Position numbers and translations under genes: made by a program
Assembly (NCBI GenBank): GCA_029858255.1
Contig: JAOUFJ010000005.1
Span: forward strand, 62,001-126,000
Source of the DNA: a candidate division WOR-3 bacterium
GTDB lineage: Bacteria > Hydrothermota > Tepidihabitantia > SM23-42
Direction of reading: 5' to 3'
Length of the DNA: 64,000 nucleotides
The notes under the pieces: generated by a model
Told to the model about the DNA's origin: nothing
The model's database searches: none
What the model saw: the letters and a program-made list of their open reading frames with translations, nothing else
Part shown: piece after piece, positions 49,416 through 53,008 of the stretch
Position numbering within the stretch: the first letter of the stretch is position 1
How the letters are laid out: every line of letters starts with the position of its first letter

Positions 49416-51860
49416 TTAGTGTGCTTCGTCCCAGTCTGGACCGATGCCGATCGAGGTGACGATCGGGACATTTGTTTCAATAGCACTCTCCATGCAATGT
49501 TTGATGATCTCTTTGGCTTCGTCGATCCTGTCATTTTCTATCTCGAATAACAACTCATCATGGATCGACAAGAGAAGACCACGATTGAATTTGCCTCCGG
49601 TCAGTCTGTTTTCAACATCGATCATCGCGATCTTCACAAGGTCTGCGGCACTGCCCTGGATCGGCGTGTTAATGGCGGCCCGTTTTGAAAATTCGCGCAG
49701 GTTATAGTTCCGCGAGTGCAGGTCGGCCAGTGGCCTTCGGCGTTTGAAAATGGTTTCTGCGTATCCTTTTTCCTCTGCCGACCGCACTGCTTGTTCGCGC
49801 CAGGCCGCTACACCGGGGTACAAATCATAATAGGATTGGATGAATTGTGCTGCCTCTTCGTGGGCAATATCAAATCGCTGGGCGAGGCCGTAATCACTCA
49901 TGCCGTAGATAAGCCCGTAATTAACCACTTTGGCCATTCTGCGTTGTTTGTCGTCGACCTTTTCTTCGGGAATACCGAAGACTACGCTTGCCGTGTGCCG
50001 GTGTATATCATCGCCCTTCATGAATGCCTGGATGAGGTTTTTGTCATCTGCGATATGGGCAAGCAATCTCAGTTCGATCTGAGAGTAATCGGCCGAAATT
50101 AGCGTGTAGCCTTCGCTTGCGACAAAGCCCTTTCTTATTTTCCTGCCAAGGTCGCTCCGTATGGGTATGTTTTGAATGTTCGGATTCGAAGAAGACAGAC
50201 GGCCGGTCGCCGTTCCGGTCTGGTTGAAAGTCGTGTGGATACGGCCTTCCTGGCTCAACATGATCAATGGCTCGAGGTATGTCGATTTCATTTTGGCAAG
50301 TTCGCGGAACCTGAGCAGTTCTCTGGGCACTGCATGGCTGAGGCTGAGTTGAGTCAGCACTTCAAAATCGGTTGAATAGTGTTTCTTGCCGCGTTTCGTC
50401 GGCTTGAGTTTCAGCTCTTCGAAGAGCACTCCAGCGAGTTGTTTAGGTGAATTGATGTTGAACGAATGGCCGACGATTTCATAGATACTTTTTTCGGCTT
50501 CGCGCAGATGCTGTTCGACTTCTACATTGAGTTCTTCCAGGTATATTACGTCAAGGCCGATACCGCGTTTTTCCATCTTCGTCAATACGTGTATGAGCGG
50601 TTCTTCGATATTGTTGTAGAGATCGAACATGTCCTTTTCCTGCAATTTGTCCTTGAGAACAGGATACAGTTGATGGCTCAGAAGGGCGATAGTTTCCGGA
50701 GCGTCTCCCGGGCATGATTTCAGGTTTTGAAGGCAGATATCGTCAAATGAGTATGAACGGCGATTGGGATCGAGCAGCCAGGAAACGACCTGGAGATCGA
50801 AGAGGGGTGGTTTTATGGTCGTGGCGTGTGCAAGAGTCTTCAGGTCATAGCCGACCGTGATGATTCCTTCCCGGGCCAGGATTTCAGCGATTTGATCATG
50901 CCCGCTGCGGTACACATTGTCTTCGTCGGTGCTGAGAAATACCTCGTTATCACCCAGCGCAATACCGATCATTTTAACATCCATTGCCACATCTTTGCCA
51001 TTCAATTCCTGCACCTCGATACCGGCGTGGATGCCCCTTGAGAGTTCTTTGATGTATGCATGGAATTCGAGATCGACGAGGATCGGCATGACCTTGTCCA
51101 TATCGGGTTCTTTAGTGCGCAAGTTATCAAGGGAAAAGTCCAGTGGCACGTCGGTCTTCAGTTCGATCAATTCATGCGATAGTTCTGCTTTTTCCTTGTG
51201 CTGGGTAAGGCGAGGGTCTTTTTCGAGAGCTTCGTTGAAATCGGCATATTTCTTTATTATTTCCTGGGCGCGCTTGGGCCCGATGCCCGGCACTCCGGGA
51301 ACATTGTCTATTGTATCGCCGGTGAGTGCAAGATACATGGGGATTTGCTCGGGAGCGATTCCGTATTTTTCAGAGACCTTGTCGCGGTCGATTATTTCAT
51401 CTCGGTAGGCATCATAGACAAAGACATTATCACCGACGAGCTGGAGCAGGTCTTTGTCCGATGTCGCGATGTAGACCTCGCCTTGCTCTTTTAGCTTGAC
51501 CGCAAGGGTCGCCAGGATATCGTCGGCTTCATAGCCTTCGACCTCGAATTGAGGTATGCCCATGCATTCGGACAGCTCCTTTACCTTCTCGATCTGGAAT
51601 GGAATGTCAGGCGGCGGGGGAGGCCGGGTCGCCTTATAATCTTCGAATATCTCATCGCGGAACGTGACCCCCGGCGCATCAAAGGCAAGAACAAGATATT
51701 CGGTCGGCAGTCTTTTCTTTATCTTTTCAAGGGTGTTAACGAAGCCGAATATGCCGGAAGTGTTCTGGCCGCGGGAATTCTTCAGCGGGTTCTTTATGAA
51801 TGCGAAATAAGAGCGGAAGATGATCGAATACGCATCGATGATGACGAATTTCTTTATCAT
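49416..51860 (-). CDS. polA: DNA polymerase I
   Basis: An 814-residue family A polymerase for repair and Okazaki-fragment processing. The 5'-nuclease domain (residues 1 to about 290) has FDAPGVTFR, EGYEADDILA, TSDKDLLQLV and the helix-hairpin-helix GVPGIGPKRA. The 3'-5' exonuclease-like domain is short and lacks a clear DxE start, so proofreading is doubtful. The polymerase domain has ADYSQIELR, RRMAKVVNYGLIYGMS, the R.AINTPIQGSAADL helix and SIHDELLFE. ATG 51860 is taken instead of an in-frame TTG at 51866 because that TTG overlaps the -10 box. Leaderless start. Confidence 0.96.
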   Translation of the reverse strand: MIKKFVIIDAYSIIFRSYFAFIKNPLKNSRGQNTSGIFGFVNTLEKIKKRLPTEYLVLAFDAPGVTFRDEIFEDYKATRPPPPPDIPFQIEKVKELSECMGIPQFEVEGYEADDILATLAVKLKEQGEVYIATSDKDLLQLVGDNVFVYDAYRDEIIDRDKVSEKYGIAPEQIPMYLALTGDTIDNVPGVPGIGPKRAQEIIKKYADFNEALEKDPRLTQHKEKAELSHELIELKTDVPLDFSLDNLRTKEPDMDKVMPILVDLEFHAYIKELSRGIHAGIEVQELNGKDVAMDVKMIGIALGDNEVFLSTDEDNVYRSGHDQIAEILAREGIITVGYDLKTLAHATTIKPPLFDLQVVSWLLDPNRRSYSFDDICLQNLKSCPGDAPETIALLSHQLYPVLKDKLQEKDMFDLYNNIEEPLIHVLTKMEKRGIGLDVIYLEELNVEVEQHLREAEKSIYEIVGHSFNINSPKQLAGVLFEELKLKPTKRGKKHYSTDFEVLTQLSLSHAVPRELLRFRELAKMKSTYLEPLIMLSQEGRIHTTFNQTGTATGRLSSSNPNIQNIPIRSDLGRKIRKGFVASEGYTLISADYSQIELRLLAHIADDKNLIQAFMKGDDIHRHTASVVFGIPEEKVDDKQRRMAKVVNYGLIYGMSDYGLAQRFDIAHEEAAQFIQSYYDLYPGVAAWREQAVRSAEEKGYAETIFKRRRPLADLHSRNYNLREFSKRAAINTPIQGSAADLVKIAMIDVENRLTGGKFNRGLLLSIHDELLFEIENDRIDEAKEIIKHCMESAIETNVPIVTSIGIGPDWDEAH

Positions 51861-51865
51861 GGCCA

Positions 51866-51893
51866 ATTATACGCAATAATAAGGCATAAGCAA
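51866..51893 (-). promoter_or_regulatory. Promoter of polA (leaderless)
   Basis: Minus strand TTGCTT (51893-51888), 16-bp spacer, TATAAT (51871-51866), then 5 nt to the ATG at 51860. Confidence 0.65.
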
Positions 51894-51901
51894 GTCTACA
51901 C

Positions 51902-52027
51902 TGGGGACAGGCATAAACTTTTAAACTTCTTACTGCTTTTTCTTTTGAAATATCATCGTATCTGTAGATGCTATTGTTGCATGTGCTGCACACGCGGCAA
52001 AAGTTTAAAAGTTTATGCCTGTCCCCA
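51902..52027. mobile_element. 126-bp palindromic element with perfect 27-bp terminal inverted repeats
   Basis: The arms 51902-51928 (TGGGGACAGGCATAAACTTT and 7 more) and 52001-52027 are exact reverse complements over 27 bp and enclose a 72-bp AT-rich core. The GGGGACAGGC end sequence resembles REP-like palindromes mobilised by Y1 (RAYT/IS200-like) transposases in other genomes; this is from memory, not a search. No transposase is nearby and no target duplication is visible. It sits exactly between the divergent polA and lipid-kinase promoters, 9-12 bp from each -35 box. Confidence 0.75.
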
Positions 52028-52038
52028 TGATTTGTGTA

Positions 52039-52066
52039 TTGACAGCGTACTGATTATGCGTAGTAT
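52039..52066 (+). promoter_or_regulatory. Promoter of the lipid kinase gene (leaderless)
   Basis: TTGACA (52039-52044), 16-bp spacer, TAGTAT (52061-52066), then 6 nt to the GTG at 52073. Confidence 0.7.
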
Positions 52067-52072
52067 TGAACA

Positions 52073-53008
52073 GTGGTTCACCAGAAAAAGGTCCACGCGA
52101 TCATTAACCCGCACGCCGGCTACGGCAAAGCCGGCAAGAGATGGCCCCAAATATTAGAATGTCTAGAGTCTTCAGGGTTCGATGTCACCTGGCGGTTGAC
52201 CGAGAGAAGGTGGCATGCTTATGACATTGCGCTGGAGTATGCGCGGGAAGGAGCAAGGCTCATAATCAGTGTCGGAGGTGAGGGTGTGATGAATGAGATC
52301 GTGAACGGCTTGTTCGCCTATAAGAAGACATCCGGTACTATGCCCACACTCGCCATGATCCCGGCAGGAACCGGAACCGATCTATCAAGGACCCTGCATA
52401 TTTCCAAAGATTATCGCCAGGCGGTTGAGGTGATCAAAACCGGGCGCGAGATGTTAATGGACGCGGGTAGGATGGTCTTCCAGCGTGACGGCAGGACCTG
52501 GGCGCGCTATTTCATCAATGCAGCAGATACTGGATTGGGCGGAGCCGTGGCAAGACTCAGTAACAGCCTTCCAAAAGTCCTGGGTGGATTCTTGACCTTC
52601 TTGCTCGCCAGTCTCGCTGCGTTACTCAGTTTCAAGCGGATGACATTGAAGATTTGGGTTGATGGCAAGCTGGTTGGCAGCGGGCTCATGACCATCGTTG
52701 GCGCGCTCAACGGGCAGTATTTCGGCGGCGGTATGCATGCCGCGCCAATGGCCGTGGTCGATGATGGAATAATGGAATTTCTGTACGTTAAGGATACCGG
52801 GTTTTTCAAATTCGTCAGCAAGGTCCTGGCGAAGGTGTACACAGGAGAACACCTGGCATACCACAAGGTTCATCTTTGTAAAGGCCGGCAATTGAAGGTG
52901 CAGAGCGAGAAGGTATTCCTTGCTGAAGTTGACGGCGAGGTCGAAAGGGCAAGTACGATCTGCCTTGATGTTTTGCCCAAGTCGGTCGGTATGTTGGTGG
53001 TTAAGTAG
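52073..53008 (+). CDS. Diacylglycerol kinase-family lipid kinase
   Basis: A 311-residue DAGK-catalytic-domain protein (DgkB/YegS type) that phosphorylates a lipid such as diacylglycerol. It has INPHAGYGKAGK, the nucleotide-loop region SVGGEGVMNEIVNG, IPAGTGTDLSR, and a C-terminal beta-sandwich with FGGGMHAAPMAVVDDGIMEFL and the EVDGE motif. The normally invariant GGDG reads GGEG, a conservative Asp-to-Glu change. It starts with GTG without a ribosome site and ends next to the convergent nadD stop. Confidence 0.9.
   Translation: MVHQKKVHAIINPHAGYGKAGKRWPQILECLESSGFDVTWRLTERRWHAYDIALEYAREGARLIISVGGEGVMNEIVNGLFAYKKTSGTMPTLAMIPAGTGTDLSRTLHISKDYRQAVEVIKTGREMLMDAGRMVFQRDGRTWARYFINAADTGLGGAVARLSNSLPKVLGGFLTFLLASLAALLSFKRMTLKIWVDGKLVGSGLMTIVGALNGQYFGGGMHAAPMAVVDDGIMEFLYVKDTGFFKFVSKVLAKVYTGEHLAYHKVHLCKGRQLKVQSEKVFLAEVDGEVERASTICLDVLPKSVGMLVVK

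Follow-up and report, generated by a model that had tools for sequence, protein, structure and literature searches.

TIRtrons were named in 2013. They are described, in the cited sections of the literature, as RAYT-like genes with terminal inverted repeats that commonly contain GGGGWSAS, accompanied by dispersed families of the same terminal repeats (PMC3733652, PMC6006769). The terminal repeats of these elements, also called TIRYTs, are moderately abundant and occur both singly and in pairs (PMC3733652). Subclass 2.1 of the TnpA_Y1 transposases, equated with RAYT group 1, is characterized in the cited part of PMC6006769 by a Y1 core followed by a C-terminal helix-turn-helix, by GGGG[AT][CG]A[CG] repeats and by the motifs NHxH and YxxxNP. 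REPINs are composed of two inverted ends separated by a variable spacer, form a hairpin and depend on a Y1 enzyme acting in trans (PMC3116915, in the sections cited). The element considered here is very probably a non-autonomous miniature with two arms and without transposase, belonging to a genus-specific TIRtron-like family (family A) on which a Y1 enzyme would act in trans.

The element and its insertion site

The window, i.e. the whole stretch of 64,000 nucleotides analysed here, includes divergent polA and lipid kinase genes, with the element in the gap between their promoters. The features of this region are as follows.

49416 to 51860, minus strand: polA (DNA polymerase I; Pfam DNA_pol_A and 5_3_exonuc).
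51866 to 51893, minus strand: polA core promoter, TTGCTT-16-TATAAT, separated from the element by 8 bp and kept in relatives.
51902 to 51928, plus strand: left terminal inverted-repeat arm, with the family boundary at GGGG (51903); based on the inverted repeat and on copies elsewhere.
51903 to 51914, plus strand: left-arm head box GGGGACAGGCAT, read from the sequence; fits the GGGGWSAS published for TIRYT ends (PMC3733652, in the part cited).
51915 to 51930, plus strand: doublet of direct repeats in the left arm, AAACTTTT followed by AAACTTCT; read from the sequence, with the doublet test on driver arms.
51929 to 52000, no strand assigned: element interior, in which no coding function was seen.
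51999 to 52014, minus strand: doublet of direct repeats in the right arm, two copies of AAACTTTT; same basis as the left doublet.
52001 to 52027, minus strand: right terminal inverted-repeat arm, complementary to the left arm at every position.
52039 to 52066, plus strand: kinase core promoter, TTGACA-16-TAGTAT, listed by promoter prediction and kept in relatives, 11 bp from the element.
52073 to 53008, plus strand: YegS/diacylglycerol-kinase-type gene (Pfam DAGK_cat/YegS_C).

An earlier note, made from the letters of the window, had reported a perfect 27-bp inverted repeat between the two divergent promoters. The inverted-repeat search of the window recovered it exactly, the perfect 27-nt arms (51902-51928/52001-52027) lying 72 nt apart. 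The distance to the -35 boxes, put at 9-12 bp in that note, was close to the measured 8 and 11 bp. The outermost T/A pair of the arms was not conserved in the family and the element proper, delimited by the conserved GGGG boundary, was 124 bp long (51903-52026). Both arms displayed GGGGWSAS as GGGGACAG, as did the driver ends. The very stable hairpin announced in the same note was also recovered, one strand of the whole element folding far beyond its shuffles (z -10.0 as RNA and z -10.0 as single-stranded DNA), and the window was without any match in Rfam.

On the minus strand, the -35-like box of polA (TTGCTT) was located at 51888-51893 and its -10 box (TATAAT) at 51866-51871, while the kinase gene displayed TTGACA at 52039-52044 and TAGTAT at 52061-52066. 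Promoter prediction listed the kinase promoter only, and the polA promoter was assigned on its conservation among relatives. Relatives were collected by a polA search of 100 genomes. Examination of empty sites, as the earlier note had proposed, was informative: the polA site was empty and both core promoters were kept in all four readable relatives (G003, G007, G004 and G002), i.e. same-genus genomes in which polA and the kinase gene are still back to back. Genome G006 carried other sequence upstream of polA and no element, the contig of G001 stopped at polA, and no polA match was obtained for G005 in this search. Since the site is empty in the readable relatives, the simplest account of the polA-site copy is an insertion specific to this lineage. 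Counted by eye, the -35 boxes were 13-15 bp apart in the empty-site relatives vs 145 bp in the window, a shift that the insertion would have produced while sparing both core promoters. No convincing relative of the interior was found elsewhere in the host genome by genome-wide search. The sole match was a stretch of 23 nt at C5:22107; a copying of the interior from this place was dropped, the match sitting within unrelated sequence.

Both transcription starts lie downstream of the element, whose hairpin is therefore not expected in either messenger, and an influence as RNA on polA or kinase mRNA, which the earlier note had considered, is unlikely. An action on both promoters as spacer DNA is possible. 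Judging from polymerase footprints, two polymerases could hardly sit together at -35 boxes 13-15 bp apart. The likeliest local effect would therefore be one of spacing, polA and the kinase gene being transcribed without two polymerases competing for space.

Copies, range and anatomy of the family

The earlier note had called for a search for other copies of the arm, and many were found in a genome-wide search of the host genome (2.72 Mb in 82 contigs, 96.6% complete). In this genome, TGGGGACAGGC with at most one mismatch occurred at 92 places vs 31 for the reversed pattern. Among 66 genomes, GGGGACAGGCATAMACTTTT with at most one mismatch was present in all eight genomes of the genus and in none of the 58 others, the reversed-pattern control giving 0. 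An exact arm scan of named genomes returned three records, all from candidate division WOR-3. As far as these searches indicate, the family appears restricted to the genus of its host, within candidate division WOR-3; a shorter core, GGGGACAGGC, exceeded its reversed control in 8/8 genomes of the genus, as well as in certain other relatives.

Arms were conserved throughout the family and interiors mostly differed. In each arm, the head GGGGACAGGCAT preceded a unit of 8-9 bp that was present twice in direct orientation, this unit being encountered as AAACTTTT, ACACTTTTT, AACATTTTT, AACCTTTT or AAACTTCT. At loci around the GGGGACAGGCATAMACTTTT matches, a list which includes one place only from G006 and mostly leaves out AACAT-type copies, 157 arm-like sites (at most five mismatches) formed 41 convergent pairs, 88-227 bp long. 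The first-unit subtype agreed between both arms in 29 of these pairs, as compared with 19.6 +/- 2.3 when right arms were shuffled within genomes (p 0.0002). The terminal repeats were dispersed as single arms and as convergent pairs, as is characteristic of TIRtrons/TIRYTs, and neighboured many unrelated genes. All four single arms that were folded were unstructured. The flanks of 144 arms displayed just a C/T bias beside GGGG and, farther out, a weak A/C bias. Inspection by eye of the flanks of the paired arms revealed no target-site duplications.

Transposase genes

The transposase search was confined to the Y1 family, and Pfam Y1_Tnp genes were found in all eight genomes of the genus. The RAYT/IS200-type transposase that the earlier note had proposed to look for was encountered in relatives: G007, G005 and G003 carry Y1 genes of 291-314 aa between family A arms. 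No driver gene with such arms was found in the host genome itself (96.6% complete, 82 contigs). A further open Y1 frame, of 323 codons and with A-type ends alongside, was present in G001. In a tree that left out this frame, the three A drivers and the G000 gene at C47 formed one clade (support 100/100). This C47 gene (L098 1118-2129), the A-clade member of the host genome, was placed on a long branch and was bordered by unrelated 33-bp terminal repeats. The driver of the host genome may have been lost, may lie in a gap or may have been replaced by C47 acting in trans. The G005 driver (L195 373-1464) was bordered on either side by doubled, nested arms, an arrangement that would arise if one element inserted into the terminus of a second.

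The A drivers displayed SHIH as HuH motif and YIHRQ as tyrosine motif, and were matched by the NCBIfam model for REP-associated tyrosine transposases below its cut-off. Their C-terminus weakly resembled HTH_23 in two cases (E 3.5e-5 and 0.0059, both under the Pfam cut-off) and gave no match in the third. When the G007 driver was compared with the PDB by phmmer, only weak matches were retrieved, the best being the putative transposase 2fyx (E 0.14).

Most Y1 genes examined were bracketed by terminal repeats of ~20-36 bp starting with GGGGTCA or (G)GGGAC, many of them with an inner direct doublet. This doublet was detected at p < 0.05 in 15 of 20 non-B arms and was absent from both B arms, the 22 arms tested not being independent by descent. 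This suggests that head-plus-doublet is a general plan of such Y1 ends.

Sister family B, with GGGACAGGCTACTTTTT ends, was represented in the host genome by a 219-aa Y1 gene (C2:178770-179473, L097) and by miniatures of ~111-117 bp with the same ends (C2:203920-204030, C4:114204-114315 and C33:849-965). This joint presence of driver and miniatures in one genome was counted in favour of the driver/miniature reading. Near-perfect terminal repeats, mostly GGGGTCARATCT followed by a 7-bp doublet, were also displayed by 330-aa Y1 genes from WOR-3 relatives (L095, L096, L168-L192 and L208), and the C-terminal parts of two such proteins from the host genome were weakly similar to DnaA or sigma-70 models. 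Hairpins of REP-like type, each occurring singly and matching GGGGACAGGCACCTTNCGGAGCCAGTCCCC exactly or closely, were further located in the host genome at C17:48523, C19:18929, C19:19144, C19:37285, C34:12537, C39:9866, C41:6768, C41:9355, C50:5125, C60:2844 and C60:2906.

Scattered copies mostly carried the subtype of the driver of their own genome. The AACAT subtype was displayed by 38 of 61 arms in genomes with an AACAT driver (G003, G001 and G004) vs 6 of 48 in those with an AAAC driver (G007 and G005; p 1.5e-7), a comparison omitting G000, G002 and G006, where no arm-bearing driver was found or the listing was incomplete. Likewise, TTCT arms amounted to 11 of 30 in G005 vs 4 of 97 in G001-G004 and G007 (p 1.7e-5), the incompletely listed G000 and G006 being omitted. 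Both tests are hand counts excluding driver arms, and independence holds neither between arms of one pair nor between shared sites. Genome G004 went against the trend, with ends of AACAT type in the vicinity of an open Y1 frame and yet mostly AAAC copies (AACAT, 4/18).

Shared sites and proximity to promoters

Clustering of 144 arms (at most three mismatches) by outward flank resulted in 100 clusters, 21 of which were encountered in more than one genome. Site S1 was occupied by an element or a remnant in seven of the eight genomes of the genus, upstream of the -35 box of the same gene. Its right arm was decayed in G003, a single intact arm with a different upstream neighbour was found in G001, and G005 displayed no element and a different neighbour. 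Over six sites, interiors could not be aligned (z < 3) in 13 of 15 orthologous comparisons. Between G004 and G002, the flanks of S1 were 96/95% identical while interiors were unrelated and arm subtypes different, the G002 interior resembling other loci. The G000-G002 comparison at S1 was an exception among the 15 (interior z 5.1). At S8, the other exception, the interiors of G002 and G004 were aligned (z 28.4) and both arms had switched subtype together. From these alignments at a few family A sites, occupied sites appear to persist across species with interior and arm subtype being swapped.

An outward TTGACA was located within 45 nt of 19 of 100 arms collapsed by orthology, and in reverse orientation for two. 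Intergenic positions chosen at random, with a gene start ahead of them, gave a corresponding proportion of 5.9%, a rough control drawn from the window only and based on greedy gene calling. Among 52 arms facing only a gene end, 39 were situated at most 14 nt from the stop codon. Compact intergenic space together with the purging of harmful insertions may explain such adjacency without any choice of target.

Nature of the element and proposed mechanism

The element is read as mobile because copies occur genome-wide and because, in relatives, the site is empty and a Y1 gene is found inside the same arms. Counting against the miniature reading are the arm-bearing driver not found in the host genome, the deviating terminal repeats and long branch of C47, the interior without a sister copy, the behaviour of G004, and the YIHRQ motif and weak helix-turn-helix match of the A drivers. 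A regulatory palindrome evolved locally for polA and the kinase gene, as operator, insulator or attenuator, is improbable. The flush position between two promoters, the excess of outward TTGACA over random positions and the persistence of S1 in 7/8 genomes are in its favour; the polA site is nevertheless empty in 4/4 readable relatives despite their kept core promoters, many arm copies stand beside unrelated genes, arms bracket transposase genes, and an attenuator is ruled out by the position upstream of both transcripts. The earlier note had reserved a local regulatory function for an arm without other copies and a locus conserved in every relative, neither of which was found. That note rather favoured a REP-like palindrome moved by a Y1 transposase, of which the mobile repeat from the Y1 world was retained and the REP palindrome was not, the GGGGACAGGC arm being unstructured and devoid of a conserved guide tetranucleotide. 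An origin as a REPIN or REP doublet, with a REP-associated RAYT as its mover, is accordingly quite improbable, although two inverted ends, a variable spacer and compensatory changes form a common plan (PMC3116915, in the part cited): REPs are defined by a hairpin end and a guide, so that their definition does not apply to 4/4 unstructured single arms, nor to 144 arm flanks without any conserved GTAG-like guide outside the arm. REP identity was dropped once single arms proved unfolded. Perfect terminal repeats and small size would agree with a MITE derived from an ordinary double-strand (DDE) transposon, but this reading is very improbable, as the ends belong to Y1 genes and no target-site duplications were visible in the flanks.

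The preferred reading thus remains that of a miniature of a TIRtron-like family, which on sequence grounds is apparently moved by a single-strand-cutting transposase. This enzyme would act in trans on single-stranded DNA, e.g. the lagging-strand template, on which both arms could pair into one long hairpin. Its HUH/Tyr core would cut at the GGGGAC head and its C-terminal helix-turn-helix would read the doublet. A wider scheme can be envisaged tentatively, though taken as a whole it is somewhat doubtful: a TIRtron family whose ends follow a modular code, in which a fixed GGGGAC head would correspond to the HUH core and a tandem doublet, changing along with the driver, to the helix-turn-helix, and in which miniatures would be swapped at standing docking sites upstream of -35 boxes. 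If such docking sites are real, occupancy would be kept while the occupant turned over.

Comparison with known systems

Like REPINs in the cited sections, the elements of this family combine a pair of inverted ends, a variable spacer and a hairpin with a Y1 enzyme that would act in trans; unlike them, their ends are not self-palindromic and no conserved GTAG/GTGG guide was found on the 5' side. With TnpA_Y1 subclass 2.1 as delineated in the cited part of PMC6006769, they share the Y1 core and GGGG[AT][CG]A[CG] repeats. The A drivers nevertheless display SHIH and YIHRQ instead of NHxH and YxxxNP, and were not filed under this subclass because the class-2 tyrosine signature YxxxNP is absent; the 330-aa WOR-3 Y1 genes fit the published description better.

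Neither the family nor its doublet was found in the open-licence literature searched and, among the matches listed for the bare motif GGGGACAGGC, none was on bacterial repeats by title. To judge by its sequences, the closest known kind of element is the TIRtron/TIRYT. As in the cited descriptions of these elements, a RAYT-like Y1 gene is situated inside terminal inverted repeats that are not REPs (G007, G005 and G003), and long terminal repeats with GGGGWSAS are dispersed singly and in pairs. Unlike TIRtrons/TIRYTs as described in the cited part of PMC3733652, the WOR-3 family displays an arm doublet, driver-matched subtypes and swapping at fixed sites. New are the arm doublet, the subtype common to both arms, the swapping of occupants at kept sites and the copies abutting outward -35 boxes. 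With drivers, passengers, empty sites and matched subtypes all present in several near-complete genomes, the genus lends itself directly to testing how ends are recognised by a Y1 enzyme in the absence of REP hairpins, and whether miniatures swap at fixed promoter-edge sites.
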